A stretch of 64,000 bases of DNA, from positions 62,001-126,000 of the forward strand of contig NZ_JPWI01000006.1 in NCBI RefSeq assembly GCF_003326795.1, in the 5' to 3' direction. Below are positions 1 through 15,897 of this stretch, in pieces; the first letter of the stretch is position 1; the number at the start of each line of letters is the position of its first letter. Under the pieces are notes generated by a model, which worked only from the letters and a program-made list of their open reading frames with translations, was not told the DNA's origin and ran no database searches. This stretch comes from Thalassospira profundimaris (GTDB taxonomy: Bacteria > Pseudomonadota > Alphaproteobacteria > Rhodospirillales > Thalassospiraceae). The position numbers and the translations under genes are program-made.

Positions 1-1
1 G

Positions 2-304
2 CGCCTTGAAAGCGCTTTGGCTGAAATGATGAAGTCAGCCGGGATCGGCATGGTCGCGGTTCTTCCCATCCTTTGTCTGTTGCTATGGCTGATGAACCGG
101 CGGCATCGGGTCTTTGTCAGTCTGAATAACGATGTCAAACGCGCCATTCTTGGTCAGAACTCCACGGATGATTTCCATGATCGGGACCTGTTGACGGAAA
201 GCGAAATCGAAATGGTCGCGCTGTATCGCGATATCCGTAAAAACCTGCGCGATGGCACGTCATCAGATGCTCCGTCACCGACCAATAACGAGAAGCCGCA
301 ATGA
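2..304 (+). CDS. C-terminal fragment of a membrane protein, cut by the window edge
   Basis: The frame is open from base 2, so the 5' end of this gene lies outside the window; the TTG at 17 is probably not the real start. The visible 100 or so residues have one hydrophobic segment (GMVAVLPILCLLLWLM), then a charged cytoplasmic tail ending in a low-complexity Ser/Pro/Asn stretch. The layout resembles the last membrane helix and short cytoplasmic tail of an extracytoplasmic sensor. The stop overlaps the next start (ATGA at 301-304), so it is translationally coupled to the sensor-MFS gene. I cannot assign a family from this fragment. Confidence 0.6.
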   Translation, partial: RLESALAEMMKSAGIGMVAVLPILCLLLWLMNRRHRVFVSLNNDVKRAILGQNSTDDFHDRDLLTESEIEMVALYRDIRKNLRDGTSSDAPSPTNNEKPQ

Positions 305-2319
305 CCCATCCCGATAAGCAGACTTTGTTAACAGATCAGGCCAAGTCCGGCGCGCCACGTGGGCGTATGTTGCCCAAGGGGACGGTCTGGATTTTGTCAT
401 TGTTCAGCATCCTGATGCTGTGCGTTGCACTGATCGGTATTTCCTGGCGGGCTGCGGAACTTGCACGCAGTGACCTGCAACTCGAAATCAGTCAAAAGGC
501 CGAGATCGAGGCCGAAACACTGGCAGGCAAGATCAATCGCGCGATCAATCTGGGTATTCCACTCGCGGAAATTGTCGGCTTCTCTGATGTTCTTGTTCAG
601 TTAAAGCAAGCAGACCCGGATTTGCGATTTGCAGCTGTTGTCCATGATGGCGATCTTCTTCATACGGGCGGCCTCGGCAAAGGTGCCTTGGAAAGTGCGC
701 TTGCCGATCAGCATGACGGGCTGAGCAACGATTACATCATCACCCAAATCAGTCTTCCTCACGAGATCGATAATACCGACGATATTGAAATTATAATCGG
801 GCATGACCGGGCCGCACTGATGCGGCCCCTGACGGATAATCTTTTTGATATTGCGGTGATCCTGATCATTTCGCTTGCCCTGTCGTTTGAGCTGGTCCTT
901 CTGGTTTTGACGGTGAATGTCGCCTTGCCGGTGCGTGTGGCGCAGCGGGTTTTGACCAGTGTTCGCGAAAAGCAGTTCACGCTTCTGCACGGGCAATCGT
1001 CGCGGGACGAAATCGGCAAGTTCATGGAAAACATCAATGCCGTCGTCACCCAGACGGCAAGGAAGCGCGGAACAACCCCGCGGTCCGAACGCGAGGTCAA
1101 GCTGATCGGTGTCAGGTTGCTGGCATTCCTGTTTGTTCTGGCCGAGGAACTTGCACGTCCGATCATGCCAACCTTCTTTGGCAAGGTGACGTCGAGCATG
1201 GCCGATGGAAATATGGCGGCCGGTATCATCATGGCGGTTCACTTGCTGATGGTGGCGATTGCCATGCCGGTTTGCAGCCTGTTTCAGGAACGTGTCGGAT
1301 CGCTTCGTATGTATCTCACGGGGGCGTTTCTGGCGACGATTGGTCTTTGTGGAACGGCCTTTGCCACCGGCATGTGGGATTTGCTGATCTGGCGGGCATT
1401 TTCGGGTATCGGCTATGCCACGACGTTTGTCGCCTGTCAGGCCTATGTGATTGATGCAACAACCGAGCGCAATCGTACCCAGGGTACAGCGATGATGGTT
1501 AGCGGGATCATGCTTGCAGATATTTGCGGGCCGGCAATCGGCGGGATTTTCGCGGGGCATTTTGGCGAGGCAACAACATTCATTGCCGGTGCCGTTGTCG
1601 CAAGTCTTGCTGTATTTCTGGCCTTTTTCCTTCTTGATACGCATGTGCGCGGACAAACACCGCTCCCCGTTCCGACACGCAAAGCCATGAAGGCATTACT
1701 GGCAAACCGGCAGTTCCAGGTGCTTATCCTGTTTGCTGCGGTTCCTGCCAAAATGATCCTTAGTGGATTTTTATTCTACCTGACCCCGCTGATCCTGATC
1801 GAACAGGGGGCAACAATCGCTGAGACCGGCCGGGTGATCATGCTCTATGGTCTTGTCGCATTGCTGACGGGATGGAGTGTCGCGCGCTGGACGGATAGCA
1901 AACAGCGCGAAACCCGGGCGGTCGGAATTGGTGGTGGATTGACAGCACTTGGTCTTCTTCTGGCGGGTTTCATGCCGCTTTACGGTGTGTTTGCGGTGGC
2001 CGTCGGATTGCTGGGACTGGCACAGGCGACGTCAATTCCGGCTCAGGTTTCGGCAAGTTTGAAGATCAGCCGCGACTTTACCGAAGAACACGGTACGGGG
2101 GCTGTGCTTGCGGTGTTGCGGTTGGCTGAACGTCTGGGGGGCGCGACCGGACCATTGCTTGCTGCGGGACTTGCCTTGTGGCTTGGAACGATTGGTGCCG
2201 TGACTGTTTTTGGCGTGATAGCACTTGTTTCGGTTTTGTGTTTCGAATTGTTGATCGGGCATGTTGACGCAAGCCCCAAGAAACAGTCCGAACCGCTAGA
2301 AGAAGGGGCGTCATCGTGA
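301..2319 (+). CDS. Sensor/HAMP-like domain fused to an MFS transporter
   Basis: This 672-residue protein has two parts. Residues about 30-50 and 183-206 are membrane helices flanking a periplasmic domain of about 130 residues, followed by a HAMP-like linker (around 207-255, with SRDEIGKFMENINAVV). From about residue 267 on it is a 12-helix major facilitator domain similar to drug/metabolite exporters. HAMP linkers normally connect periplasmic sensing to kinases or cyclases, so joining one to a transporter is unusual and suggests ligand-gated transport; that role is inference. It overlaps both neighbours by 4 bases, in one operon with a periplasmic binding protein. The substrate is unknown. 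Confidence 0.75.
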   Translation: MTHPDKQTLLTDQAKSGAPRGRMLPKGTVWILSLFSILMLCVALIGISWRAAELARSDLQLEISQKAEIEAETLAGKINRAINLGIPLAEIVGFSDVLVQLKQADPDLRFAAVVHDGDLLHTGGLGKGALESALADQHDGLSNDYIITQISLPHEIDNTDDIEIIIGHDRAALMRPLTDNLFDIAVILIISLALSFELVLLVLTVNVALPVRVAQRVLTSVREKQFTLLHGQSSRDEIGKFMENINAVVTQTARKRGTTPRSEREVKLIGVRLLAFLFVLAEELARPIMPTFFGKVTSSMADGNMAAGIIMAVHLLMVAIAMPVCSLFQERVGSLRMYLTGAFLATIGLCGTAFATGMWDLLIWRAFSGIGYATTFVACQAYVIDATTERNRTQGTAMMVSGIMLADICGPAIGGIFAGHFGEATTFIAGAVVASLAVFLAFFLLDTHVRGQTPLPVPTRKAMKALLANRQFQVLILFAAVPAKMILSGFLFYLTPLILIEQGATIAETGRVIMLYGLVALLTGWSVARWTDSKQRETRAVGIGGGLTALGLLLAGFMPLYGVFAVAVGLLGLAQATSIPAQVSASLKISRDFTEEHGTGAVLAVLRLAERLGGATGPLLAAGLALWLGTIGAVTVFGVIALVSVLCFELLIGHVDASPKKQSEPLEEGASS

Positions 2320-3359
2320 AACACATTCAGTTTGCGCGAAATGCTGCCCGGTCTTTGAGCAGTGTTGTCTTGTTTTTGCTGTGCCTTGTCGCCGTGAACT
2401 TTTTTAGTGCTCAGGCAGTCCAGGCCAAGGGCGAGAAAGACGATCCCCTGAGGATTGCGATGATCCTTTGGCGCGGAGAGACCCGGGTCGAGGAAGGATT
2501 CCGTGCCTACTTCAAGGACCGCGACATTGCGATTGATCTGCAAGTTCATGATATTGCCCGCGATCTTGACAAGATACCTGCGATCATCGAGAAAATTCGC
2601 AAAGACCCGCCTGATCTGGTTTACACTTGGGGAACTGGCGTAACCTCGCGGGTGGTTGGAAAATATAATGACTTTGATCCGGCCAAGAACATCACCAAGC
2701 TGCCGGTGGTTTTCGTCATGGTGTCTGCACCCTGGAAAACAGGCATTGCTGCGCCTCGCGGCCAATGGCGCCCCAACGTCACCGGGGCAGCCCATATCGC
2801 ACCGCTATCGGCGCAAATTCAGGCCATTCGCGCCTATCGTCCGATGACGAAGCTTGGCGTGGTTTACAATGCCGAGGAAGACAATTCCCTGTCCAATATC
2901 AGCGATCTTAAGGTGCTTGGCGAAGAAATGGGGTTCGAAGTCCTTGAAGCACCGTTGGGCCAGAATGCAAAACCCAAACCCGAAGACATTGCCCCGGCGG
3001 TCAAAATGCTGGCGGAAAATGGGGCTGATTTCCTTTATATCGGGCCGGATAACTTCATCGGGACGTATCGTGATGAACTGACCGAGGCAGGATTTGTCAA
3101 TGGTCTTGCTGCCTTTAGTGCCACCGAACTTGAAGTCCGTGACGGTCAGGCGATGCTGGGGCTGGTCAGTCGATATGAGCTTGTCGGGCGACTGGCCGCC
3201 AGCAAGGTTGAAGACATTCTGGTCAACCAGATTTCACCCGCCGATATACCGGTTGAAACGCTTGATCGGTTTTCCTATCTGATCAGGCTTTCATCGGCAC
3301 GCAGGCTTTCGCTTTATCCGCCTTTGTTGCTTCTTGATTATGCGGAAATCATCGAATGA
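2316..3359 (+). CDS. ABC_sub_bind (TrpX-like) periplasmic binding protein
   Basis: The 347-residue product starts at GTG 2316, overlapping the preceding TGA. A signal peptide is visible (hydrophobic SVVLFLLCLVAVNFF, cleavage near AQAVQA). The mature part, from PLRIAMILWRGETRVEEGF through LVYTWGTGVTSRVVGKY, has the pattern of the ABC_sub_bind family that includes TrpX-type binding proteins. No ABC permease or ATPase is present beside it. Its partner may be the coupled sensor-MFS protein, either as ligand presenter or as a regulator of transport; this is inference. The ligand is unknown. Confidence 0.75.
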   Translation: MKHIQFARNAARSLSSVVLFLLCLVAVNFFSAQAVQAKGEKDDPLRIAMILWRGETRVEEGFRAYFKDRDIAIDLQVHDIARDLDKIPAIIEKIRKDPPDLVYTWGTGVTSRVVGKYNDFDPAKNITKLPVVFVMVSAPWKTGIAAPRGQWRPNVTGAAHIAPLSAQIQAIRAYRPMTKLGVVYNAEEDNSLSNISDLKVLGEEMGFEVLEAPLGQNAKPKPEDIAPAVKMLAENGADFLYIGPDNFIGTYRDELTEAGFVNGLAAFSATELEVRDGQAMLGLVSRYELVGRLAASKVEDILVNQISPADIPVETLDRFSYLIRLSSARRLSLYPPLLLLDYAEIIE

Positions 3360-4033
3360 CGGCGGTCATCAGGCGACTGGATGAAACGCATCTTGATGCG
3401 GTGATAGCACTTCATCATGACGTTATTGCCGATATGCCTGCCGGAACGGTTGCAAGCGAAACAGACGCATTTTTCCAGTCCCACATGAACGATTGCGGTC
3501 AGATTTTTGGTGCTCTGTCGGACGGTGACCTGATTGCCTATAGTGTATTGGGTCTACCGCGTATTGGGGATCCGAATTTCGGGATTGATCATCACTTGTC
3601 AGCCGGGGACTTGCAACAGGTCGCCCATATTGACGGGGTCGCCGTTCGCAAGGACCATCGCGGATCAAAGTGGCAGCAACGCATGGTGATACACCGGCTA
3701 GAAGCCGCACGGGCATGCGGCCGGGCCATTGCGCTAAGTACGGCGGCACCCGGAAATGTACCAAGTGTGATTAACCTTCTGGCCGCCGGAATGCGGATTT
3801 GCGGGGTGAAGGAAAAATTTGGCGGTGTGCGATATTTGTTTCGATGTGACCTGACGGGCGATAAACCGGCAAAGTTACAGGAATCGCTCCACATGGATGA
3901 CTGGTCACCGGTTTCAGATGTCACATCTGGCAAGAACATGATCGCAGATGGAATGGTTGGTGCTGGGTATCGTCAAGGGCAGGCCGGGAATAGTGGTCCG
4001 GATATTGGTTGGATGCGCAGAGAGCGGGTTTGA
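3356..4033 (+). CDS. GNAT-family N-acetyltransferase
   Basis: The 225-residue protein overlaps the binding-protein gene by 4 bases (ATGA) and is the last gene of the operon. Its first 170 residues follow a GNAT fold; VDGVAVRKDHRGSKWQQRM is the beta4-alpha3 acetyl-CoA pyrophosphate-binding segment (an RxxGxx-like variant). The C-terminal 45 residues are Gly/Asp-rich and probably disordered. The acceptor substrate cannot be read from sequence. It ends 12 bases before the stop of the convergent TAXI gene. Confidence 0.75.
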   Translation: MTAVIRRLDETHLDAVIALHHDVIADMPAGTVASETDAFFQSHMNDCGQIFGALSDGDLIAYSVLGLPRIGDPNFGIDHHLSAGDLQQVAHIDGVAVRKDHRGSKWQQRMVIHRLEAARACGRAIALSTAAPGNVPSVINLLAAGMRICGVKEKFGGVRYLFRCDLTGDKPAKLQESLHMDDWSPVSDVTSGKNMIADGMVGAGYRQGQAGNSGPDIGWMRRERV

Positions 4034-4045
4034 TCCGTTCCGGCC

Positions 4046-5431
4046 CTATTGCATTGTCCGGCGATAAGCAGGCTGGTTGCTGCCATTAACAGCAACCGGT
4101 TGCTGATAATGCGATTGCCAGTCACAGGCATGCGGATCGGTTTCCCAATAGCATGCTGCACCTTTGTGGAAGGTTAGAAAGTTACCCTTTTTAAAGAGAT
4201 CGTCGCCATTCACACTGCGGAAGGTCGGGTTCTCGGCCTTAAGCTGTTCAATATTTTCGTGGATGATGCGGGTGATCCAGTAAACCACATAAGGGTCGGC
4301 TGGTTCATAGGCGATCAGCGATGCCTTGAACCCGTAAGATTCAATATCGGCTTCCTGTCCGGCATAGGTGCGCGCAGGAAGAACCTGATTGAAGAAATAA
4401 TTGTTGGCTTCGACCAGTTTCTGGGTCAAAGGGCCACCCATGCCGACAACTTCGGCGTCGCAATCAAGGCTTTCCTCAATCAGGGATGCCGGGTGACCGA
4501 TCCACAACCCATAGGCATCGATATAATTCTCGCAGATGCCAAGCCGGTTGTAGTCCTGTGCAACATTATAGACGGTTTCGAGGTCGTCTTGCGCAATGCC
4601 ATATTGCTTGAGAAGTTCCAGCCACAACTCACGGGTTGCGGATCCTTCCGGCCCGATATTGATGCGCTTGCCCTTAAGGTCGGCGACACTGTTGATACCT
4701 GAATCTTTTCGGACAACCAGCAATCCCATTTCATCATGGAGCGACATGACCGATTGCGCACCGGGGATCGGATTGATGTCCTTGAAGGCTTCCCAGTTAT
4801 TATTGGACTGCACCAGTGCCAGTTGGACGCGGCCTTCCTTCATCAGGCGGATATTGCTGCCCACACCTTGCGAGCGCAACGGAACACAATGAATTCGATG
4901 CCGCTTGTAAGTACGTTTCATCATGTCACAGATGGTAGCGGCTACCTGAAAATAGACGCCATTGGTACTGCCGCTATAGATCGCTGCGTAATAGGATTTT
5001 TCACGTGACCCATTTCCGGTGATTTCCGCGTTATTGCTGAAATTGGCAAGGCCATCTTCCACCAGCGAATTCCGTCGATACTGTGATAAGGGAATGGCGT
5101 CAGGCTTATAAACATAACCATCGACGATATCCTGCGGTAACGCGACATTCGCCGGGCTATCGTCAAAATTGTCGATATCAAGTTGATCCCCATCATAAGC
5201 CTCTATGGCCTCAGTCGATGACAGGGACTGTGTGTTTTCCATATTCGAGGGATTGGGGGCTTGTGCGATGGCGGGCCTTCCGGCAAGCGTGGCCAACAAC
5301 GTCCCGAGAACGAAACATCCAGTGAGCGATGCAGATCGACGGGCGGAGCTTTGCAAGTTGATAACGTCCGAAAGCAGTTTGCGCGATAGTGGGTAGTCTA
5401 AAGGATTTGACACACGCCCGTCGAGATTCAA
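4046..5431 (-). CDS. TAXI-family TRAP transporter solute-binding protein
   Basis: The protein carries the TAXI-type binding core: AAIYSGSTNGVYFQVAATIC, then LRSQGVGSNIRLMKEGRVQ and ALVQSNNNWEAF, and later LKGKRINIGPEGSATRE. A signal peptide lies at about residues 30-57 (core CFVLGTLLATLAG, cleavage near AIAQA), so the start used here (TTG) may be too far upstream; an internal GTG or TTG before the signal peptide is possible. TAXI proteins deliver C4-dicarboxylate, glutamate or related solutes to a fused DctQM permease, but none is encoded nearby. An N-terminal extension of about 60 residues precedes the family core. Confidence 0.82.
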   Translation of the reverse strand: MNLDGRVSNPLDYPLSRKLLSDVINLQSSARRSASLTGCFVLGTLLATLAGRPAIAQAPNPSNMENTQSLSSTEAIEAYDGDQLDIDNFDDSPANVALPQDIVDGYVYKPDAIPLSQYRRNSLVEDGLANFSNNAEITGNGSREKSYYAAIYSGSTNGVYFQVAATICDMMKRTYKRHRIHCVPLRSQGVGSNIRLMKEGRVQLALVQSNNNWEAFKDINPIPGAQSVMSLHDEMGLLVVRKDSGINSVADLKGKRINIGPEGSATRELWLELLKQYGIAQDDLETVYNVAQDYNRLGICENYIDAYGLWIGHPASLIEESLDCDAEVVGMGGPLTQKLVEANNYFFNQVLPARTYAGQEADIESYGFKASLIAYEPADPYVVYWITRIIHENIEQLKAENPTFRSVNGDDLFKKGNFLTFHKGAACYWETDPHACDWQSHYQQPVAVNGSNQPAYRRTMQ

Positions 5432-5575
5432 TATCGCTTAAACATACGTTTCTCAGATAGTTGCGTCTTTTTGCAGTATGCCTCGCCACCTAAACCAATC
5501 ATTATGCGCAGGTTGATCGGCGGGGTGACCTGCCCCTACCATAGAGATGCCGTTGTCGGCCGTCAGGAGTAAAGC

Positions 5576-6649
5576 ATGAGCCCAAAGGACACCTTCGAAC
5601 CGACAGGGGCAGAAATCGCTCAGGCATTTTCCCTGATTTCGTCCTGGCCGGAATATGGTGAAAGCCCGCTCATCTGTGCGCAGGGGCTGGCAAAGGAACT
5701 GGGCGTGCGCACCATCTGGATCAAGGACGAAAGCAAGCGTTTCGGGTTGGGCGGGGTAAAGGCACTGGGGGCGCCCTATGGCCTTAAGAAACAGCTTTTG
5801 CAACAGGGGCTGGAGCCGGGTAGTGCCGCGTGCAACGCATTTGTCGCTGTGGCGGCAACCGACGGCAATCACGGTCTTGCCGTTGTCTGGGCGGCAAGAA
5901 AGTTTAACTGCCGGGCCAGGATTTTTGTCGGGGAGGATGTCGATCCGGCTCGCATGCGCAGGATTGTTGATTGTGGTGGTGAACTTGTCACCATCAACGG
6001 AACCTATGATGATGCCGTGCTTGCCGCCGAGGAATATGCCAGGGCCGATCATGTTTTGCTGATCACGGATACCGATTATCACGGTGATCTTGTGGTGACC
6101 CGCGATATCATGGCGGGCTACGCCGTTCTGGGTGTCGAATGTGCCCGTCAGTTACGTGCTTTTGGTGCGGATATCGACAAGTTCTATTTGCAATGTGGTG
6201 TGGGTGGCATGGCGGCCGGCTGTGCGATTGGCTTTTGGCATGAAAGTGGCACCAAGCCACAAGTCTGTAGCGTCGAGCCGGAGACAGCTGCCTGTGTTAA
6301 GGCAAGTATTGAAAATGGTCGGCCAACGCGCGTGCCGGGAAAGTTGCTGACACGCATGGTCGGGCTTTCTTGCGGATATCCCAGCCTGCCGGCTTTGAGA
6401 ATTCTTGAAGATGTCTGTTTTGACAGCATCGCGATTGACGATGCCTGCGCCAAGGAAGCGCAAGACGCGCTTATGTCGGGTATCGGGGGTGATGATCCTG
6501 TGGATACTTGGGATACCGGTATTTCAGGCCTCGCGGGGCTTTGGCATGTGGCGCGCGATCCGGAACTTCGTCGCAAACACGGGCTTGATGCCGATAGTCG
6601 TATTCTGGTGGTAAACAGCGAAGGCCGAATACCGCCCGAATATCTTTAG
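5576..6649 (+). CDS. Diaminopropionate ammonia-lyase (PLP-dependent)
   Basis: This fold-type II PLP enzyme of 357 residues is expected to convert 2,3-diaminopropionate to pyruvate and two ammonia. The segment IKDESKRFGLGGVKALG contains the likely PLP lysine (Lys62), and ATDGNHG is the phosphate/asparagine loop. The glycine-rich loop QCGVGGMAAGCAIGFW also fits. It is somewhat shorter than the E. coli YgeX type (about 400). AGGAG lies 6 bases before the ATG. It is divergent from the TAXI protein gene and precedes two peptide-exporter ABC genes. Diaminopropionate is a building block of some siderophores and peptide antibiotics, so the neighbourhood is suggestive but not proof of a link. Confidence 0.85.
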   Translation: MSPKDTFEPTGAEIAQAFSLISSWPEYGESPLICAQGLAKELGVRTIWIKDESKRFGLGGVKALGAPYGLKKQLLQQGLEPGSAACNAFVAVAATDGNHGLAVVWAARKFNCRARIFVGEDVDPARMRRIVDCGGELVTINGTYDDAVLAAEEYARADHVLLITDTDYHGDLVVTRDIMAGYAVLGVECARQLRAFGADIDKFYLQCGVGGMAAGCAIGFWHESGTKPQVCSVEPETAACVKASIENGRPTRVPGKLLTRMVGLSCGYPSLPALRILEDVCFDSIAIDDACAKEAQDALMSGIGGDDPVDTWDTGISGLAGLWHVARDPELRRKHGLDADSRILVVNSEGRIPPEYL

Positions 6650-6754
6650 GTCACCGTGTGTTCATAAAAGTGAAGCGTCGCTGGACACATTTCATACCGG
6701 TGGTTACAGTTGAAACGGTCGACAATCGGTCGGTTCTTGGGGGCTGTTAAATCA

Positions 6755-8407
6755 ATGAAGTTGCTGGAATTGTTATCTTTGGAAGATAACAAACTAAAGC
6801 TCCGGCTTGCCGTATCCGGGCTGCTTTCCGGATTGGGAAGTGCAGCCCTTCTGGGGTTGGTAAATACCGCCGCCCAAGAAATCAGTGACAATGGTCTGGA
6901 TCGTGTCAACTGGGTGTTGGCAGGCAGTTTTGTCGCCATCACACTCATTTACTTCTTTGCCGAGGTTTTCCTTCTGAGCAACATCGCGCGCCAGATCGAA
7001 CAGGGCATTGACCGCATTCGTCAAAGATTGTTCACCCAGATCGCCATGGCCGACTTCGTCAAGCTTGAGGCAATCGGGCAGGAACGACTGTTCAAGAATA
7101 TCACCCAAAGCACACAGGTCATTTCGCAAAACGCGCATCTGATCGGCATGTGTTTCCGCAGTGTGATGTTGCTGATTGCGGTGATGATCTATGTGTTCTG
7201 GATTTCAAGTCTGGCCTTTTTCCTGATCATTGGTGTGATCGGGATTGGGATCGTCATTTATTTGCGGATGGGGCGTGCGCTTGGTGAATGGTTTGGCAAG
7301 CTGCTGCAGGTCGAAGCCGAGATGTTTGAAAAGATTGCCGATCTGTTCCGGGGCATCAAGGAAGTCCGGATGTGGTCAAAGCGCAGTGACAGGCTTTACG
7401 CAGCATTTGATGCTTCTTCGACGAAAAAGGCAGAATATGGTCATAAGGCCCACGACCTGATTTCGCGTCAGATGATCATGGGGATGTCGGCATTTTACAT
7501 TCTGCTGGCCATTGTTGTTTTCATTGTCCCGGTTTATTCCAGCAGTTTGACCTCTGATATTCCCAAAATCAGTGTTGCGATCCTGTTCATGATCGGCCCG
7601 ATTTCGGTGATGGTTCAGTCGATGTCGGTTTTTAGCCAGATCGAAGGTTCTGCATCGCGGATGCTGGCATTGTCCGATGATCTGGCCGAGATCCGTGAAG
7701 AGGCCGACGAAGAAAACGCCAAGGAACTTCCCGCGGAATTCGGGCATATCGACTTCGAAGCTGTGACATTCACCTATCCCAACCGCGACCCGCGACACGG
7801 GTTTGTCCTTGGGCCGATTGATCTTTCGGTCAAATCCGGCGAACTTTTGTTTGTGACCGGCGGGAACGGTTCGGGGAAATCGACCCTGGTCAAACTTCTG
7901 ACCGGTCTTTATCGTCCGGAAAGCGGGAAAATCAGTATCGACAAGACCCAGCTTGGTGTGCACAGCATTGCGCCGTACCGCAATTTGATTGCGACGGTGT
8001 TCTCCGACTTCCATCTTTTTGCTGAATTGCACGGCGTCGATACGCTTGATACGGACGAGGCAAATTTCTGGCTTGAACGGTTTGAAATTTCGCATGTTAC
8101 AGCAATCCGTGAGGGCCGGTTTGTAACAACGGCCCTGTCATCGGGGCAGCGTAAACGTCTTGGCCTGATTTCGGCCATTCTGGAAAAACGGCCGATCCTG
8201 GTTCTGGATGAATGGGCCGCCGATCAGGACCCGTATTTCCGCAAAAAGTTCTATACAGAAATCCTGCCGGATCTGAAAAAGCGCGGCATCACGGTAATTG
8301 CTGTGACCCATGACGATCACTATTTCGAAATGGCAGACAGAAGACTTCATCTCGAAAACGGCAAGCTTTCTGAAGTCACCCTTGATGATCCGCGCGGGAG
8401 GATCTGA
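6755..8407 (+). CDS. SyrD/PvdE-type cyclic peptide export ABC transporter, first of a pair
   Basis: One polypeptide of about 550 residues combines six membrane helices (roughly residues 15-310) and an ATPase domain. Walker A is GGNGSGKST near residue 370, the signature is LSSGQRKRLGL near 460 and Walker B is LVLDEWAADQDP near 480. The DEWAADQDP variant and overall length match the cyclic peptide/siderophore exporter family (SyrD, PvdE). I prefer the ATG at 6755 (MKLLELLSLEDNK) to the in-frame TTG at 6710 because family members begin with this hydrophobic segment. It is followed after 3 bases by a paralogue, so a heterodimer is plausible. No peptide synthetase is in the window. Confidence 0.85.
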   Translation: MKLLELLSLEDNKLKLRLAVSGLLSGLGSAALLGLVNTAAQEISDNGLDRVNWVLAGSFVAITLIYFFAEVFLLSNIARQIEQGIDRIRQRLFTQIAMADFVKLEAIGQERLFKNITQSTQVISQNAHLIGMCFRSVMLLIAVMIYVFWISSLAFFLIIGVIGIGIVIYLRMGRALGEWFGKLLQVEAEMFEKIADLFRGIKEVRMWSKRSDRLYAAFDASSTKKAEYGHKAHDLISRQMIMGMSAFYILLAIVVFIVPVYSSSLTSDIPKISVAILFMIGPISVMVQSMSVFSQIEGSASRMLALSDDLAEIREEADEENAKELPAEFGHIDFEAVTFTYPNRDPRHGFVLGPIDLSVKSGELLFVTGGNGSGKSTLVKLLTGLYRPESGKISIDKTQLGVHSIAPYRNLIATVFSDFHLFAELHGVDTLDTDEANFWLERFEISHVTAIREGRFVTTALSSGQRKRLGLISAILEKRPILVLDEWAADQDPYFRKKFYTEILPDLKKRGITVIAVTHDDHYFEMADRRLHLENGKLSEVTLDDPRGRI

Positions 8408-8410
8408 GCC

Positions 8411-10075
8411 ATGTTGATGTTCCGTCTGCTCAAATCTCGTGTCGGTCTGAACCTTCGGACTGTTTTTGCACTTTCATCCATGTCGGCGATTGCCACGACA
8501 CTTGTGCTGGTGGTGGTCAATCTGGCCTCGGATCAGGCGCAGGAACATAAGGTCAATCTACAACTGTTGCTGATGATGGTTGTGTCGCTGGGCGGCTATA
8601 TGTGGGCACAGCACAAGTCCGATGTGATGGTTTCAGACGAAGTCGAAGCCATGCTGCACGAATATCGTGTCAGGCTGTTTGATCAGGTGCGAAAAGCCGG
8701 CCCCGATGTTCTGGCAAAGGTCGGGCAGGGATCGGTTCATGCCGCCATCACGTCGGAAATGCAGACGATCTCTAACAGCTTGCCGATTATGCTTAACGGT
8801 GCACAGCAGATCGTGCTGGTCGTTTGTGTCGGGCTGTATCTGGCATGGTTGTCTATCTTTGCCTTTGTCATGCTGGCGGTGCTTGTTGTTCTGGCAGGCT
8901 TTATCCATGTGCATCGCATCAACCGGGTCAATGCTGCGACCCGTGCGTCCGAAGACGACGAAGCCAAACTGTTTGACGGCCTGAATGATCTGCTTGCCGG
9001 GTTCAAGGAAGTCAAAATGAATACCCGGCGCAGGAATGCGCTCGTCGAACAGCTTGGGGAACGCTCGAAACGGGCGTGTAGCGCAAAGGCGCTGTCCAAG
9101 GCGCAATGGTCGCGCGAAAGCGCCAGCATTCAGCTGGCCTTCTACGCGATGATGGCGGCCATGGTGTTTATCGTTCCGATCTTTACCTCGGATTATCATG
9201 ATGTTGCTGTGCAGGTCACAACCGCGACCATGTTCCTGATCGGGCCAATCGGCACCGTAATCATGACATTCCCAAGTTTTAATAATGCTGAAACATCGCT
9301 TGGCCGGATTGTTGAACTTGAAAACAATCTGTCGGGGGTCATTGATGCGCAAGAAGCGGAAATGCGCGAAAAATCAGGATCAATGCCACAGGAAAGCAGT
9401 CCGTCAGCATCGTCAGACTGGCATGAGAAGATCGATGAAATTGCCCTTGAGGATGTGCGCTTTGCCTATCGGTCTTCGACAAACGGATTTGCGGTCGGGC
9501 CACTGGACGCTGTGTTCAGGCGGGGTGAAATTACCTTTATCAGTGGTGGGAACGGGGCCGGGAAATCAACGATCATTTCCTTGCTCACCGGCCTTCGAGA
9601 TGTCGATAGCGGATCGATCCGGATCAATGGTCATGCGTTACGACCCGACGACATGCAGGCCTATCGCGACAGTTTTGCCACAGTGCTTTCGGACTATCAT
9701 CTGTTTTCCGAGCTGTATGGTATTGAGCAGGTTGACGAGGAAAAGGTCAACGCGCTGCTGCGCGAAATGGAGGTTGATCACAAGGTCACCCTTGATGGCC
9801 TGTCATTCTCGACCACAGCGCTTTCGCAGGGGCAACGCAAACGTCTGGCACTGATTGCAGCACGCCTTGAAGGTAAGCCTGTTCTGGTTCTTGATGAATG
9901 GGCCGCCGATCAGGATCCGCATTTCCGCAAGGTGTTTTACGAGGAAATCCTGCCCGCCATGCGCAAGCTGGGCAAGGTCATCATTTGTGTGACCCATGAT
10001 GATCGCTGGTTCCATATCGCCGATCAGGTTTGTCACGTCCGCGACGGCATCATTGATGCGGTGCGCAGCCAATAA
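8411..10075 (+). CDS. SyrD/PvdE-type cyclic peptide export ABC transporter, second of a pair
   Basis: This 554-residue paralogue of the preceding gene also fuses a six-helix membrane domain to one ATPase. Walker A is GGNGAGKST (about residue 378), the signature LSQGQRKRLAL (about 470) and Walker B LVLDEWAADQDP (about 490), with a VTHDD switch histidine. Between the membrane and ATPase parts is an acidic, Ser-rich linker (around residues 310-345) that the first copy has in shorter form. The gene starts 3 bases after the first copy's stop, so they are probably co-translated. Both ATP sites look complete. An in-frame ATG six bases downstream is an alternative start. Confidence 0.85.
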   Translation: MLMFRLLKSRVGLNLRTVFALSSMSAIATTLVLVVVNLASDQAQEHKVNLQLLLMMVVSLGGYMWAQHKSDVMVSDEVEAMLHEYRVRLFDQVRKAGPDVLAKVGQGSVHAAITSEMQTISNSLPIMLNGAQQIVLVVCVGLYLAWLSIFAFVMLAVLVVLAGFIHVHRINRVNAATRASEDDEAKLFDGLNDLLAGFKEVKMNTRRRNALVEQLGERSKRACSAKALSKAQWSRESASIQLAFYAMMAAMVFIVPIFTSDYHDVAVQVTTATMFLIGPIGTVIMTFPSFNNAETSLGRIVELENNLSGVIDAQEAEMREKSGSMPQESSPSASSDWHEKIDEIALEDVRFAYRSSTNGFAVGPLDAVFRRGEITFISGGNGAGKSTIISLLTGLRDVDSGSIRINGHALRPDDMQAYRDSFATVLSDYHLFSELYGIEQVDEEKVNALLREMEVDHKVTLDGLSFSTTALSQGQRKRLALIAARLEGKPVLVLDEWAADQDPHFRKVFYEEILPAMRKLGKVIICVTHDDRWFHIADQVCHVRDGIIDAVRSQ

Positions 10076-10111
10076 TATTCCGCGAGAGTACGTCATCCAT
10101 GGCGTGAAACT

Positions 10112-10145
10112 GTAATCGGCCCGGACTTGAAGTCGGGCCGATTAC
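10112..10145. terminator. Bidirectional stem-loop terminator between convergent genes
   Basis: GTAATCGGCCCG at 10112-10123 pairs perfectly with CGGGCCGATTAC at 10134-10145; a further 3 base pairs with one bulged G extend the stem. It sits between the converging exporter and hydrolase genes. There is no long T tract on either side, so termination strength is uncertain. Confidence 0.6.
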
Positions 10146-10158
10146 GTATCAATGCGTG

Positions 10159-11046
10159 TCACGTCAGATATTTATTGAACCAGTCGATGGTGCGTTGCCA
10201 GGCCAGCTCGGCAGCATCCTTGTCGTAACGCGGCGTGGAATCATTGTGGAAACCATGATTGGCCCCGGGATAGATATAGGCCTCATAGACCTTGTTATTG
10301 GCCTTTAGCGCCTCTTCATAGGCGGGCCATCCGGCATTAATCCGTTCATCAAGCTCGCCATACTGCAACAGGATCGGGGCCTGAATGCGTGGCACGTCCT
10401 CGACCGCAGCCTGACGTCCATAAAACGGAACGGCCGCACCAAGTTCGGGATAGGCAACGGCTGCGGCATTTGCCACGCCGCCGCCATAACAAAATCCGGT
10501 AATCCCGGTTTTCTCGGTGGTGGCTTCATGCGCAGTCAGGAATTCGATCGCGGCAAAGAAATCATTCATCAGTTTGGTCGGATCGACAGTACGCTGGAGT
10601 TCGCGCCCCCTGTCATCATTGCCCGGATAACCACCAACCGATGTCAGGCCATCCGGGGCAAGTGCAATGAAGCCCGCCTTGGCGACGCGGCGCGCGACAT
10701 CTTCGATATAGGGGTTAAGGCCACGGTTCTCGTGCACGACGACAACACCGGGAACCTTGCCTGCAAGATTGGCCGGTTTGACCATATAACCACGTACTTC
10801 GCCATGACCATTGGGCGAAGGATACATGATATATTCAGCGACAATGTCGGGATCGGTAAAATCGACCTGATGGGCCATCGCATAATTCGGGCTCATGGCA
10901 TTCAGGATCGCAAGTGCGGTCATGCCCCCCACTGCATATCGACCGGCACGATCCAGAAATTCGCGGCGATCAATCATGCCATGGGCATAGAAATCATATA
11001 GCTCAAGAAGTTCAGGCGAAAAATCCTTGGCAGTCAAACGTTCCAT
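10159..11046 (-). CDS. Dienelactone hydrolase family protein with Tat-like signal
   Basis: An alpha/beta hydrolase with the dienelactone hydrolase triad: nucleophile in GFCYGGGVANAA (Cys), Asp in YGELDERINAGWP and His in YPGANHGFHND. The N-terminus has a twin-arginine-like segment (DRREFLDRAGRYAVGGMTAL) ending near AMA, so export by the Tat route is likely. I start it at the ATG whose GGAG is 6 bases upstream; an adjacent ATG at 11049 is equally in frame, while the long upstream extension has no support. Family members hydrolyse cyclic esters, but many have unknown substrates. It lies downstream of, and in the same direction as, the LysR gene. Confidence 0.82.
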   Translation of the reverse strand: MERLTAKDFSPELLELYDFYAHGMIDRREFLDRAGRYAVGGMTALAILNAMSPNYAMAHQVDFTDPDIVAEYIMYPSPNGHGEVRGYMVKPANLAGKVPGVVVVHENRGLNPYIEDVARRVAKAGFIALAPDGLTSVGGYPGNDDRGRELQRTVDPTKLMNDFFAAIEFLTAHEATTEKTGITGFCYGGGVANAAAVAYPELGAAVPFYGRQAAVEDVPRIQAPILLQYGELDERINAGWPAYEEALKANNKVYEAYIYPGANHGFHNDSTPRYDKDAAELAWQRTIDWFNKYLT

Positions 11047-11288
11047 CATGCGCTCCTGTCCTGAATGACATGGGGAATGGGGGCTGGTGGTGACGGTATC
11101 AATGACAAGTAAGTGCAAGGCAATGCACGTCGGCGCCACCCGCTTCGCGGCGCGCCAAGATGTGCGAATGAGTTTCATCCAAGCCGGACTTTTCGCAAAT
11201 CACAAACGCGCTATTGGCCTTGATTAAGTAAACGAGTTCACATACGGCCTGCGAATGCCGGGTGGATCACCGGGAAGGTCGGATTGGA

Positions 11289-12206
11289 TCAGAAAACACC
11301 CTCGCGGGTGATCTGATAATCCTTGAGTGCAGTGGCAAGTTGCATGGCAAAACGTGCCGAGGCCACAGGCAGAGTACGACCACGCATCTGCCCAAGGATC
11401 AGATTTCCCGGTGGTACGTCGCGTTCCGAAATCGGCCGAAAGACCAAGGAACCATCATCAGGTACTTGAAGGCCAATCGGGATTTGGAAGCCGATGGCGT
11501 TTTCATGCAGAATATAGTGGCGAATAAGTTCGAAACTTTCGGTTTCGACCACCGGGGAAACCTGTCGTGATCCGCGCCGGGCTGCAAAATCAAGGAGATG
11601 GCGTACGCCAAACCGGTGTGTCGGTGCGACATGCGGAACATCCAGACAATCCCGCAAGCGGATTTCGTCGCGTGCGCACAGCGGATGGTCGGCGCGCATG
11701 ACAACATCAACTGTTTGCGGGATGGCATGAATGACTTCGAAATCCACCAGATAGATCGGTTCGAACACAAGTGCCAGATCGCTTGAATAGCTGGCAAGTT
11801 CCTGTTCTGCCTGTGCGCGGTCCCGGACATTGACGCTAAATGTCACGCCCGGATGGGCCGCACGATAGATCGCAATCTGTTCTGGTAGAAAATAGGGCAA
11901 CATTGCCTGCGAACAGGCGATTGATACGTGACCGCGCCGTTCGCCGCTAAGATCGGCAACCTGTCCCTGTACGCGCTCAAGGTCGGACGCCATGGCGCGA
12001 TAGTGATGCAGCAAAAGTTCGCCTGCCGGATTAAGACGCACACCACTGGGCAGACGTTCAAAAAGTTCTGCGCCGAATTCTTCTTCAAACCCGTTGATGC
12101 GGCGGTTCAACGCTGATGCCGTCAGGTTCATATCCTCGGCTGCTTTGCGCATTGAGCCCGCCCGTGCAACAGCTTCGATCAGTCGGAAGGTTTGCAAGTA
12201 TCTCAT
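11289..12206 (-). CDS. LysR-family transcriptional regulator
   Basis: The 305-residue protein has an N-terminal winged helix-turn-helix (FRLIEAVARAGSMRKAAED, then SALNRRINGFEEEFGAELFE) and a LysR-type substrate-binding C-terminal half. It is transcribed divergently from the Tat-signal binding protein of the ABC importer/allophanate hydrolase operon, with about 130 bases between starts. The usual LysR arrangement makes that operon its most likely target; the downstream hydrolase gene could be another. The effector is unknown. Confidence 0.88.
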   Translation of the reverse strand: MRYLQTFRLIEAVARAGSMRKAAEDMNLTASALNRRINGFEEEFGAELFERLPSGVRLNPAGELLLHHYRAMASDLERVQGQVADLSGERRGHVSIACSQAMLPYFLPEQIAIYRAAHPGVTFSVNVRDRAQAEQELASYSSDLALVFEPIYLVDFEVIHAIPQTVDVVMRADHPLCARDEIRLRDCLDVPHVAPTHRFGVRHLLDFAARRGSRQVSPVVETESFELIRHYILHENAIGFQIPIGLQVPDDGSLVFRPISERDVPPGNLILGQMRGRTLPVASARFAMQLATALKDYQITREGVF

Positions 12207-12224
12207 ATCTCAACCATTTTCGAT

Positions 12225-12244
12225 GGTGTTGCATTTTTTGCACC
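12225..12244. promoter_or_regulatory. Candidate LysR operator in a divergent promoter
   Basis: GGTG at 12225-12228 and CACC at 12241-12244 flank an inner TGCA/TGCA pair (core TTGCATTTTTTGCA), forming an imperfect dyad between the divergent LysR and binding-protein genes. Position and symmetry suit a LysR-type site, but no binding data exist. Confidence 0.35.
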
Positions 12245-12336
12245 GGATTGGTGAAAACATAGCAGTTTTCGCGAACGCAAAATACTGCAAACTGACAGCA
12301 ACGGATTCTAAAAAGCTGTTCATGGGGGTTTTCACG

Positions 12337-13941
12337 ATGGTTACCAGACGTAATTTTCTAAAAGGTAGTGCTGTTCTTGCCGGTACCTTGCCTTTCGCCC
12401 GGACATTTTCCGCACTTGCTGCCGGAAGCGACACGCTGGTCGCCGTATCGTCGCAAACGGTCAACAGTCTTGATCTTCACCGCACCGGGACCAACCGTGC
12501 GTCCTATCAGATTGCGGTAAACTGCTATGACCGGCTGGTGTCGTTCGGCTCCAAACCGGCTGAAGGCGGCGGACTTTCCTATGATTATTCAACCATTGTG
12601 CCGGAACTGGCGGAAAGCTGGACCTTCTCCGAAGATGGCATGACCATCACCTTCAAGCTGAAATCCGATGCCGTATTCAATGATGGCAGCAAAGTCACCG
12701 CAGCAGACGTCAAATGGTCGTTTGACCGTGCCGTCAGTGTCGGTGGTTTCCCGACGGTTCAGATGAAGGCAGGCGGCTTTACCCGCCCGGAACAGTTCGA
12801 AGCCATCGACGATGAAACCTTTGTCGTGAAGCTTGATCAGGCATCAAAACTTTCATTGCCCGATCTGGCGGTGCCGGTGCCCTTTATCATCAATTCCAAG
12901 GTCGCCAAGGAAAATGCGACCACCGATGATCCCTGGGCGATGGAATATCTGCACACCCACACCATCGGTTCGGGTGCCTATAGCGTTACCCGTTGGGATG
13001 CCGGTCAGCAGGTTGTCTTTGAACGCAATGACAAATGGGTTGGTGGTCCGACCCCGCCGGTACGCCGCGTGATCATGCGTGAAGTTCCGTCTGCGGCAAC
13101 CAGCCGTGCACTGATTGAACGTGGTGACGTTCAGGTTGCCTTTGATATTCCCGACAAGGATGCAGCCGAGCTGGCAGGGAAGGTCACCGTGCATTCAACC
13201 CCGATTGAAAACTGCATCCATGCGCTTTGCCTGAACACCAAGTTCGAACCGTTCCAGGACCCGGATGTGCGCAAGGCCATTGCCTTTGCCGTGCCCTATG
13301 AGGCGATCTTTAATGCGGCGGCCTATGGACGTGGTGCCCCGCTTTGGGGTGGCGAACCAAAAGCAACCGACATCGCATGGCCGCGCAAGTCGCCCTATGA
13401 CACCGACCTTGAAAAGGCCAAGGAACATATGGCCAAGTCCGGCTTCGCCGACGGATTTGAAACGAAGCTTTCGATTTCGACCGATCTGTCATCATGGATG
13501 GAGCCCGCAGCCCTTCTTATTCAGGAAGCGGTTGGCAAGCTTGGCATCAAGGTTGAGATTGAAAAGATCCCGGGTGCCAACTGGCGTACGGCGGCACTGG
13601 TTGAAAAGCGCCTTGATTTCCATCTGGAAAACTTTGGCGGTTGGCTCAATACCCCGGACTACTATTTCTTCTGGGCCTATCAGGAAGGTCATCTGTTCAA
13701 CTCGTCAAACTACTCCAATGCCGAGGTCGAACAACTGACCAATGAAACCCTGCACATGGCCATGGATGATCCGGAATATGCGCCGAAAATCATGCGCATG
13801 ATCGACATCGTTCATGAAGACCTGCCGCGTATTCCGTTGTGGCAGCCTGCCCTTAACGTCGCACTTAACGGGGCGGGTGGATATGAATTCTGGTTCCACC
13901 GTCAGCTTGATATCCGTGGCCTGACAACGGTGGAAAGCTAG
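12337..13941 (+). CDS. Dipeptide-type (SBP_bac_5) ABC binding protein with Tat signal
   Basis: The 534-residue protein begins with a twin-arginine signal (TRRNFLKGSAVLAGTLPF) and matches the extracellular solute-binding family 5: ELAESWTFSEDGMTITFKLK, FNDGSKVTAADVKWSFDRA and SGAYSVTRWDAGQQVVFERN. The ATG at 12337 is chosen because it places the twin-arginine motif near the N-terminus and has GGGGGT about 8 bases upstream; the open frame extends to 12094 but that part overlaps the LysR gene. It is the first gene of an importer operon ending with allophanate hydrolase. The operon partner hints at a ureido- or amide-containing solute; this is inference. Confidence 0.88.
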   Translation: MVTRRNFLKGSAVLAGTLPFARTFSALAAGSDTLVAVSSQTVNSLDLHRTGTNRASYQIAVNCYDRLVSFGSKPAEGGGLSYDYSTIVPELAESWTFSEDGMTITFKLKSDAVFNDGSKVTAADVKWSFDRAVSVGGFPTVQMKAGGFTRPEQFEAIDDETFVVKLDQASKLSLPDLAVPVPFIINSKVAKENATTDDPWAMEYLHTHTIGSGAYSVTRWDAGQQVVFERNDKWVGGPTPPVRRVIMREVPSAATSRALIERGDVQVAFDIPDKDAAELAGKVTVHSTPIENCIHALCLNTKFEPFQDPDVRKAIAFAVPYEAIFNAAAYGRGAPLWGGEPKATDIAWPRKSPYDTDLEKAKEHMAKSGFADGFETKLSISTDLSSWMEPAALLIQEAVGKLGIKVEIEKIPGANWRTAALVEKRLDFHLENFGGWLNTPDYYFFWAYQEGHLFNSSNYSNAEVEQLTNETLHMAMDDPEYAPKIMRMIDIVHEDLPRIPLWQPALNVALNGAGGYEFWFHRQLDIRGLTTVES

Positions 13942-13945
13942 GATC

Positions 13946-14971
13946 ATGGCAGTCCGGGGAACCAGCGTTTTGACGCGCATCGCACAGGCCATTCCGGTCC
14001 TGTTCGGGGTCATCGTTATCAGCTTTGTCCTGACGCGCGCCTTGCCTGGTGACCCGGCTGTCCAGTTTGCCGGGATCATGGCAACGCCCGAAACCATCGA
14101 AGAAACACGGGCGAAGCTTGGTCTTGATAAACCCCTGCCAGAACAGTTCGTGGTCTATCTGGGGCAATTGTTTCAGGGGGACCTTGGGCAGTCGGTTTCG
14201 ACCGGGCGACCGGTTCTGACCGAACTTGCAAGCCGACTTCCGGCGTCGCTTGAATTGACGTTAAGTGCGCTTTTGCTGTCCTGTCTGGTAGCTGTGCCGC
14301 TGGGTGTTCTGGCGGCAACGCGACCGGGAAGCTGGATTGACCAGATCTGTCGATTGCTGGTGACCATGGGGGTTTCGCTTCCGACCTTTTTCACCGGCGT
14401 GATGCTGATTTACATTTTCTATTATCTGCTGGGCGTTTCGCCATCCCCGCTTGGGCGACTTGATTTCATCTATCTTGATCCGCCCCATGTGACCGGCTTC
14501 TTCCTGATTGATGCGGCACTGGACGGGGATTGGGAAACATGGTTCGGCGCACTTAAACAATTGATCCTGCCAGCGGTGACGCTGGCGCTGTTTACGCTGG
14601 CCCCGATTGCCCGCATGACCCGTGCCGCGATGCTTTCGGCATTGTCATCGGATTATATCCGGACCGCGCGTGCGGCGGGCCTTGGATCGGGTCGCATTCT
14701 TTATGGCTATGCGTTTCGCAATGCGCTGCTTCCGGTCGTAACCACGCTAGGCATGGTGTTTTCCTTTGTACTGGGCGCGAATGTACTGGTCGAAAAGGTC
14801 TTTGCCTGGCCGGGGATCGGATCATATGCGGTCGAAGCCCTGATTGTTTCGGACTATGCCGCGGTTCAGGGATTTGTCCTGGCGATGGCGTTTCTTTTCG
14901 TCTTCCTTAATCTGGTGATTGATCTGGCCTATTCGCTGATTGATCCGCGTTTCGGGACATCTGGCAAATGA
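13946..14971 (+). CDS. ABC importer permease, DppB type
   Basis: A 341-residue permease with an N-terminal helix, the DppB/OppB-type start (VLTRIAQAIPVLFGVIVISF, RALPGDPA) and the EAA loop region AARAAGLGSGRILYGYAFRN. It begins 4 bases after the binding-protein stop and overlaps the next permease gene by 4 bases. Together with the DppC-type subunit it should form the membrane channel of the importer. A loop of about 50 residues around residues 165-195 lies between the second and third parts, as in other DppB proteins. Confidence 0.9.
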   Translation: MAVRGTSVLTRIAQAIPVLFGVIVISFVLTRALPGDPAVQFAGIMATPETIEETRAKLGLDKPLPEQFVVYLGQLFQGDLGQSVSTGRPVLTELASRLPASLELTLSALLLSCLVAVPLGVLAATRPGSWIDQICRLLVTMGVSLPTFFTGVMLIYIFYYLLGVSPSPLGRLDFIYLDPPHVTGFFLIDAALDGDWETWFGALKQLILPAVTLALFTLAPIARMTRAAMLSALSSDYIRTARAAGLGSGRILYGYAFRNALLPVVTTLGMVFSFVLGANVLVEKVFAWPGIGSYAVEALIVSDYAAVQGFVLAMAFLFVFLNLVIDLAYSLIDPRFGTSGK

Positions 14972-15897
14972 ACAAGATCGTTTCATCCGCGTCTGATGCC
15001 GCATCGGTTCAAGTGGCGACGGCCAATGGCCCCGTGACCCCGGCAAAATCGAAATCGGGTGCCTTTGCCCATCTGATCTATGTGCTGCGTGAAAATCCGG
15101 TGACGGGCATTGCCTTTGCCATGTTCGGGATTTTGATCTTTGCTGCGATCTTTGGTCCGATGATCGTGCCCTATGATCCACTTGCCACCGATGCCAGCAG
15201 CGTCCTGCAGCCGCCATCCTTTGCCCACTGGTTCGGGACCGACAATCTGGGCCGCGATGTGTTTAGCCGTGTGGTGGTGGCAACCCGTCTTGATCTGGTG
15301 ATTTCGGTGGCCGCTGTTGCCTTGTCCTTTGTGATCGGATCATTCCTTGGCGCGGTTGCCGGGTATCGCGGCGGCTGGACGGACATTACGCTGAACCGTG
15401 TGCTTGATACCATCATGGCCTTTCCGCTGTTTGTTCTCGCGATGGGGGTGGTTGCGGCCCTTGGCAATTCGGTTGCCAACATCATTTACGCAACCGCGAT
15501 CATCAATATCCCGTTCTATGCCCGACTGGTCCGGGCCGAGGTCAATATTCGTCGCAATGCGGGCTTTACCCTTGCCGCCAAGCTTTCGGGCAATAGTGAT
15601 GCGCGCATTCTGGCCTTTCACATCTTCCCCAATGCGCTGCCGCCGATGATGGTGCAGGTGTCGCTTAATCTGGGTTGGGCGATCCTGAATGCCGCAGGGC
15701 TCAGCTTCATCGGGCTGGGTGTCCGCCCGCCGACCCCGGAATGGGGGATCATGGTGGCCGAAGGCGCGAATTTCATCGTTTCGGGCGAATGGTGGCTGGC
15801 ACTGTTTCCGGGGCTTTCACTGATGATTGCGGTTTTGACCTTTAACCTGATGGGCGATGGACTGCGCGATATCGTCGATCCCCGCCGGAGGACATGA
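14968..15897 (+). CDS. ABC importer permease, DppC type
   Basis: The 309-residue protein shows the DppC/OppC pattern: an N-terminal cytoplasmic tail, first helix at about residues 45-65, the motif HWFGTDNLGRDVFSRVV, the EAA-like segment AAKLSGNSDARILAFHIFPN and the C-terminal FNLMGDGLRDIVDPRRRT. It overlaps the genes on both sides by 4 bases, which supports stoichiometric expression with the DppB partner. Confidence 0.92.
   Translation: MNKIVSSASDAASVQVATANGPVTPAKSKSGAFAHLIYVLRENPVTGIAFAMFGILIFAAIFGPMIVPYDPLATDASSVLQPPSFAHWFGTDNLGRDVFSRVVVATRLDLVISVAAVALSFVIGSFLGAVAGYRGGWTDITLNRVLDTIMAFPLFVLAMGVVAALGNSVANIIYATAIINIPFYARLVRAEVNIRRNAGFTLAAKLSGNSDARILAFHIFPNALPPMMVQVSLNLGWAILNAAGLSFIGLGVRPPTPEWGIMVAEGANFIVSGEWWLALFPGLSLMIAVLTFNLMGDGLRDIVDPRRRT

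Follow-up and report, generated by a model that had tools for sequence, protein, structure and literature searches.

HAMP linkers are known to drive kinases, cyclases, chemoreceptors and phosphatases. The closest described relatives of the system reported here are receptors stimulated by solute-binding proteins (histidine kinases, chemoreceptors and diguanylate cyclases), in which a transmembrane (TM) helix, a Cache domain, a second TM helix and a HAMP linker are served by a dedicated periplasmic binding protein. Receptors known to respond to solute-binding proteins comprise chemoreceptors, sensor kinases, diguanylate cyclases/phosphodiesterases and Ser/Thr kinases, and the accessible part of the source names no gated transporter (PMC9602780). 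Similarly, the outputs in a census of Cache domains are of the chemotaxis, kinase, cyclic-di-GMP, phosphatase, cyclase, Ser/Thr kinase, transcription factor and ion channel types; no transporter output appears, and the word stem "transport" is absent from the main text as far as it is accessible (PMC4822843). Here, we analyzed a 64,000-nucleotide stretch of the 4.68-Mb Thalassospira profundimaris genome G000 (contig 35, NZ_JPWI01000006.1, positions 62001-126000; hereafter the window), whose first genes form an operon around a protein that shares the TM-Cache-TM-HAMP layout and has a periplasmic binding protein of its own. In this family, however, the output is a major facilitator superfamily (MFS) transporter, with no recognized signaling output domain, and all 75 sensor-bearing members are accompanied by a second receptor without output, which we call SEN.

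Several other systems share parts of this arrangement. TRAP transporters likewise combine a binding protein with two membrane proteins for secondary transport. To our knowledge, their membrane proteins are unrelated to the window system and carry neither Cache nor HAMP; in our searches the membrane part of the window protein matched MFS_1, and SEN matched Cache, with no Dct family (DctQ/DctM) among the best 25 of 35 Pfam families. The DHA1 drug:H+ antiporters (MdfA, NorA, SotB and also VMAT2, which we count as a DHA1 member) share the fold of the window's MFS half, and we know of no N-terminal receptor half, SEN or binding protein in any of these four. Transporter-fused kinases, namely Ks-Amt5 (PMC5764959) and the SLC5/STAC proteins CrbS, CbrA and RpuS (PMC9100948), also hold a transporter fold and a signaling module in one chain. 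As described in the accessible parts of these sources, the transporter fold is joined there to a kinase output, and Ks-Amt5 had lost transport, whereas in the window family the order is reversed and a sensor precedes the transporter. The GlnH-GlnX pair of Corynebacterium comprises a binding protein and a chemoreceptor-like membrane protein which, like SEN, has no known output domain; it differs in controlling the kinase PknG, in GlnX having no HAMP and in having no transporter, according to the accessible part of that work (PMC9769921). As far as we searched the open-access literature (titles and abstract beginnings, among the matches listed), neither a Cache/HAMP receptor whose output is a transporter nor a sensor-HAMP-MFS module with a binding protein has been described.

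The original prediction placed a periplasmic sensor, two TM helices and a HAMP-like linker in front of a 12-helix MFS transporter. This layout held up: the gene is one uninterrupted reading frame of 672 codons, and the encoded protein runs from TM1 through a Cache-like periplasmic domain, TM2 and a HAMP-like linker into a 12-helix, DHA1-like MFS domain. An AlphaFold 2 (AF2) model of the full protein (mean predicted local distance difference test score, pLDDT, 75.7) has a TM1 helix at residues 25-83, an alpha/beta domain at about 94-169 and a TM2 helix at 171-222, followed by a short connector, a helix at 237-255 and the MFS helices. The predicted coupling of the operon's genes was also borne out, with start/stop overlaps that read ATGA, GTGA and ATGA. 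Gene sizes are 649-679 aa at 13 named loci (12 Thalassospira, 1 Fodinicurvata), relatives beyond these share 24-46% identity, and the architecture occurs in alpha-, beta- and gammaproteobacteria.

Counts throughout refer to a defined set. We found 105 relatives and took 80 of these loci into the counts; with L002, L037 and L038 they make 83 loci and 84 proteins, comprising 75 sensor-bearing proteins, eight from Azospirillum without the sensor half, and L101, which is cut by a contig end. The 75 come from 74 loci (L070 holds two transporters) and include near-identical Thalassospira loci (e.g., L048, L049 and L054), so that fewer than 75 cases are independent. Loci L039-L042, on the same contigs as L099, L119, L097 and L113, and the weak MFS matches L108_3 and L124_8 were left out. 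Counts of neighboring genes are lower bounds, since loci stop at contig ends. For a wider survey, we ran separate transporter and binding-protein profiles, both built from family members, against 398 Pseudomonadota genomes (212 genera).

The linker is HAMP-like at the level of family profiles. At E<=0.1, 28 of the 75 sensor halves matched HAMP (PF00672; best 2.7e-9) and 23 matched sCache_3_2 (best 1.2e-6). A profile of the 75 sensor halves, searched against all PDB sequences, gave eight matches at E<=0.01, although in five of them no single stretch passes that limit alone: two histidine kinase-Gcn4p constructs, an aromatic acid chemoreceptor, two sensory rhodopsin II transducers, Aer2 and two HAMP/EnvZ chimeras. 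From the entry names, and partly from general knowledge, we take all eight to be HAMP-bearing signaling proteins. The window protein has P210 and D236-E237-I238-G239, and across the family P is found in 61, D in 43, E in 47 and G in 55 of 75 proteins; we take a proline in AS1, a connector and DExG before AS2 as marks of HAMP. Both the full-length AF2 model and one of the sensor half alone, made on the 75-row alignment (pLDDT 81.2), show helix-connector-helix at this position. In a Foldseek search with the sensor-half model, the single match at E<=0.001 was an integrative model of the WalK sensor kinase (9a5d_A, TMq 0.63). Just ahead of the linker, glutamate E197 in TM2 is invariant in all 75 sensor-bearing proteins.

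The gene upstream had been taken for a membrane protein fragment. With the flanking sequence added, it proved to be a complete receptor gene of 265 residues, SEN, with a TM helix, a Cache-like periplasmic domain, a second TM helix and a cytoplasmic stub without a recognized output domain. The predicted module with its own binding protein is thus real and conserved, but its constant second receptor had been overlooked. Profile-profile comparison shows the SEN family and the MFS sensor half to be homologous (hhalign probability 98.8, E 9.3e-17, 214 columns), and dCache_1 was matched in 22 of 69 SENs. A separate SEN gene lies just upstream in 69 of the 75 cases, adjacency being defined as a profile match on the same strand ending <=600 bases upstream of the sensor-half match (gaps found, 27-387). 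In the other six (L058, L094, L096, L111, L116 and L123), assigned from domain matches, SEN and MFS are one polypeptide. A tree of MFS domains, built by a quick method and with long branches and 16 of 81 inner branches left open, implies three or more switches between split and fused forms. Six loci from outside the window's genus, fetched later from the 398-genome survey and possibly overlapping the 80 named loci, all have SEN (three separate, three in the same open reading frame, ORF) and all have the binding protein downstream. Homology, constant adjacency and natural fusions strongly support SEN and the MFS protein as partners, from which we infer a SEN/MFS heterodimer.

The third component is a PF04392 (ABC_sub_bind) binding protein. 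The original prediction called it TrpX-like and without an ABC partner. Indeed, the operon holds no ABC permease or ATPase gene, but the TrpX assignment was not upheld: the protein scored 74.1 bits against an NCBIfam equivalog cut-off of 390, and its nearest solved relatives (6hni, 3lkv and 3lft) reached only 37.6-44.6 bits, from which we do not conclude an aromatic ligand. In 72 of 75 cases, a binding-protein gene is found on the transporter's strand and no more than 1 kb away from it (in L097 and L113 upstream of SEN rather than behind MFS); the exceptions are L051, where it is absent, and both transporters of L070. In the wider survey, the transporter was found in nine of 398 genomes (E<=1e-60; 5 of 212 genera; three of the nine of the window's genus). 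Strong binding-protein matches (E<=6.8e-94) occurred in exactly these nine, near the transporter by coordinates, and ten further genomes had only weaker matches (1.3e-34 to 8.6e-31), giving 19 in total at E<=1e-30. A second PF04392 gene of the window genome sits on another contig. As a side observation, the L051 locus (7962-10743, Fodinicurvata fenggangensis) has no binding-protein gene between MFS and GNAT and keeps the rest of the operon.

In the output half, MFS_1 was matched at residues 273-582 with 127.6 bits (cut-off 33.4), and in all 15 members of A1. The nearest solved folds by Foldseek are VMAT2, MdfA, NorA and SotB (E about 1e-10 to 1e-7), with FLVCR1, sialin and SPNS2 as other MFS folds among the matches. 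Charged residues are kept throughout the family (Table 1), including R286 in 82 of 84 MFS domains. Motif C is usual in antiporters, and a motif-C-like GPxxGG stretch lies at residues 410-415. Since the fold is DHA1-like and this stretch is present, the MFS domain probably exports a small, probably charged compound. Judged by sequence, the architecture is established, and so are its SEN and binding-protein partners.

Taken together, a receptor-gated secondary transporter, acting in export, is the best explanation of this operon, and we hold it with moderate confidence. The PF04392 protein would capture a small ligand in the periplasm and, once loaded, would dock on the Cache domains of a receptor pair, SEN plus the MFS sensor half. 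The signal would then travel via TM2 and the HAMP-like linker to the first MFS helix and shift the transporter between states, and the MFS domain would export its compound; GNAT, where present, may acetylate this compound or an analogue. The receptor's output would thus be the act of transport rather than a phosphorylation or second-messenger signal. The original prediction of a signal-gated transporter that has its own ligand presenter agrees with this favored reading. Whether this amounts to a new class of transport system is, in our estimate, evenly balanced. In such a class, an MFS protein would be the direct effector of a transmembrane receptor, a dedicated binding protein would be read by the SEN/MFS Cache pair, and an outside ligand would open or shut an exporter in one complex without kinase, messenger or transcription.

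Several observations weigh against receptor-gated export. Structure prediction and domain search of the 672-residue protein recovered MFS_1 and the HAMP-like helices, but neither a HAMP nor a Cache model of Pfam matched it directly at E<=10, and no HAMP appeared among the best 25 of 35 families in the Pfam scan of the SEN family. In the Foldseek search, the WalK model is followed by two chemoreceptor models (E 0.0035 and 0.005) and, from rank 4, by unrelated GTPases (from E 0.02). The ratios of nonsynonymous to synonymous substitution (dN/dS) are low against L045 (TM1-Cache-TM2 0.101, HAMP 0.056, MFS 0.052) and L046 (Cache 0.131, HAMP 0.122), but synonymous divergence (dS) is near saturation in both comparisons (1.1-1.5 for L045), which weakens these values. 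The proline of GPxxGG is not kept family-wide. The distance from TM2 to MFS, measured in 73 of 75 proteins (L058 was not measurable), is only 33-55 residues in five fused proteins (L094, L096, L111, L116 and L123); the other 68 have 81-127. HAMP is thus not essential in those five. Finally, eight Azospirillum relatives have no sensor half and no SEN (N-terminal part read in five), and seven of them no binding protein (in L114 the contig stops after the gene). The transporter can therefore exist without the receptor, and control is not needed for every member.

Of the alternatives, the one that survives best is a binding-protein-dependent MFS importer, in which the PF04392 protein would feed the MFS domain, much as DctP-type proteins do in TRAP systems, and the Cache domains, on SEN and on the MFS protein, would serve as no more than a docking platform. 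The near-constant adjacency of binding protein and transporter, the confinement of strong binding-protein matches to transporter genomes, the missing ABC partner and a second membrane partner, separate or fused, in all 75 cases are consistent with import, but the DHA1-like fold and its antiporter-type stretch are not what an importer would suggest, and the seven Azospirillum loci keep MFS without a binding protein. Moreover, a similar sensor and a PF04392 protein are found with histidine kinases, where there is no transporter domain. At E<=1e-15, the sensor-half profile had matches in 17 of the 398 genomes; nine of these were the genomes carrying the transporter, which left eight others. Five loci opened from five of these eight (L155, L156, L157, L159 and L160; G343, G400 and G441 were left out) all look like histidine kinases: four were scanned and have HAMP, sCache_3_2, HisKA and HATPase, and the kinase of L159 was read by eye. 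In four of the five, a PF04392 gene is the immediate upstream neighbor, with none seen in ~1 kb upstream in L155. These kinases likely sense via binding proteins, and the same input pair therefore feeds a signaling output elsewhere, which we also count in favor of receptor gating. We consider import unlikely, though a serious contender.

Alternatively, the assembly might be a transceptor: the MFS domain would sense or carry a substrate, the complex would signal to a cytoplasmic partner (SpoIIE where present), and transport would be secondary. Genes for SpoIIE, an anti-sigma-type ATPase and STAS are found in 28, 26 and 16 of 75 loci (SpoIIE anywhere in the fetched locus, and within 2.5 kb in eight), and in L078 and L164 the gene before SpoIIE is a sensor paralogue whose MFS-like domain is degenerate. 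Yet the window locus has no SpoIIE nearby, the only SpoIIE match of the genome being on another contig, and 47 of 75 show none in the fetched locus, where contig ends may hide it in some cases. The main sequence argument concerns the charged MFS residues. In the four sensor paralogues before SpoIIE (L078, L164, L071 and L100), the membrane domains align poorly or are short and these residues are unrecognizable, whereas they are kept in 80-84 of 84 MFS proteins, which argues that the window type transports. The contrast is not clean, for SpoIIE directly follows an ordinary MFS gene in L070, L097 and L113, which counts against gated export and for a transceptor. All told, we hold a transceptor to be slightly less likely than import. 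The SpoIIE-coupled pairs themselves look like a transporter turned signal transducer; SEN and sensor-half pairs stand directly before SpoIIE at L164:7846-12008, at L078:2343-7189 and, in L071 and L100, at about 10700-17500, with a degenerate MFS in L164_34 and L078_15 and only 5-6 helices in L071_48 and L100_43.

An ordinary exporter, in which the sensor half merely anchors or assembles the protein and gates nothing, would suit the Cache-less Azospirillum forms and the shortened linker of five fused forms. It leaves unexplained why the Cache and HAMP parts are under purifying selection (with dS near saturation) and why the SEN and binding-protein partners are constant, and we find it quite improbable. 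The chance that an assembly error or frameshift joined two genes, which the original prediction had raised, is negligible and without support, since 75 proteins from 74 loci have the same joined gene, which spans alpha-, beta- and gammaproteobacteria and is also seen on a complete 1.7-Mb Vibrio plasmid (order SEN-MFS-binding protein) and in the one-contig genome G217.

Table 1. Coordinates of the operon's features in the window, with the evidence for each
Feature	Position	Strand	Evidence
SEN, 3' end (partner receptor)	1..304	+	Flank fetched: whole gene L002:9507-10304 = G000:C35:61507-62304, 265 aa
Sensor-HAMP-MFS fusion protein, 672 aa	301..2319	+	Single ORF, Pfam, AF2
TM1, residues about 25-55	373..465	+	AF2 helix 25-83, hydropathy; boundary approximate
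Periplasmic Cache-like domain, residues about 56-170	466..810	+	AF2; sCache_3_2 in 23/75 family members; Foldseek
TM2, residues about 171-206, with E197	811..918	+	AF2; family alignment
HAMP-like linker, residues about 207-257 (P210, connector, DEIG 236-239, second helix 237-255)	919..1071	+	AF2, alignment, profiles
MFS domain, DHA1-like fold, residues 265-655	1093..2265	+	MFS_1 6.9e-37; Foldseek
E282-E283, MFS helix 1	1144..1149	+	Kept in 83/84 and 84/84
R365, MFS domain	1393..1395	+	Kept in 84/84
K484	1750..1752	+	Kept in 81/84; R in the other 3
R607, E610, R611 cluster	2119..2133	+	Kept in 83, 80 (D in 4) and 83 of 84
Periplasmic binding protein, PF04392 (ABC_sub_bind), 347 aa	2316..3359	+	Pfam 1.6e-17, 64.1 bits, cut-off 25.9
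GNAT-like acetyltransferase, 225 aa, accessory	3356..4033	+	Acetyltransf_1 23.2 bits, cut-off 20.7

The window operon comprises four genes between a divergent upstream gene and a convergent downstream gene. Its order, SEN-MFS-binding protein-GNAT, was found at all 14 mapped loci of the genus (L023-L036), as the predicted four-gene order would have it; across the family, however, GNAT is present at only 35 of 75 loci, and we rejected it as a core part. Its assignment as a GNAT enzyme stands just above the Acetyltransf_1 cut-off; Acetyltransf_9 reached 23.4 bits, below its cut-off of 25, and the protein had no NCBIfam match (E<=1) and no PDB match (E<=0.1). Its counterpart in the closest relative, L045, had no match at E<=1e-5. 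GNAT and SpoIIE occur together in 8 of 75 loci. Other neighbors include a formyltransferase-like protein (13/75), an alpha/beta hydrolase (15/75) and a histidine phosphatase (16/75).

Around the operon (window 4046-10075 and L002:6553-9411) lie genes for SPFH and DUF697 proteins, a TAXI binding protein, a diaminopropionate ammonia-lyase-like enzyme and two cyclic-peptide-type ABC exporters. The operon has the same surroundings in Pleomorphomonas and a Rhodocyclaceae metagenome-assembled genome, and partly in Pokkaliibacter. Nonribosomal peptide synthetase (NRPS) or NRPS/polyketide synthase genes lie near the operon in some relatives (L046:47-3166 and L063:422-5164). A necessary link to NRPS clusters was ruled out, as all 11 matches of the window genome (best 8.4e-22, 27% identity) are on other contigs. 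Farther along the window (20522-24190, minus strand), two beta-ketoacyl synthase-like genes and a FabG-like reductase, read by eye, are possibly a type II fatty acid or polyene-like cluster.

Within the genus, the spread is patchy: 15 of 29 genomes carry the window type, two a divergent type and 12 neither. One divergent Thalassospira version (L041:8350-13016, on the contig of L097) is ordered GNAT-binding protein-SEN-MFS-SpoIIE, with an anti-sigma-type ATPase gene, and adjoins genes resembling type III export parts (ORFs read by eye). Of 12 matches in plasmid records, the three with an annotation for such a gene name it MFS transporter. The Azospirillum forms (L106, L107, L109, L110, L112, L114, L118 and L121; also L173:3389-5083) have about four N-terminal helices before MFS and no Cache. 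The first of these helices resembles that of SEN, which suggests a collapsed SEN-MFS fusion, and in several of these relatives alpha/beta hydrolase, histidine phosphatase and chemoreceptor genes follow.

If receptor-gated transport is correct, external signals could control secondary transport directly. Many MFS transporters work as monomers, and the family is therefore a testable system in which something other than a cytoplasmic dimer may respond to the movement of a HAMP linker. The natural fusions and the short-linker and Cache-less forms would provide a ready series of natural variants.

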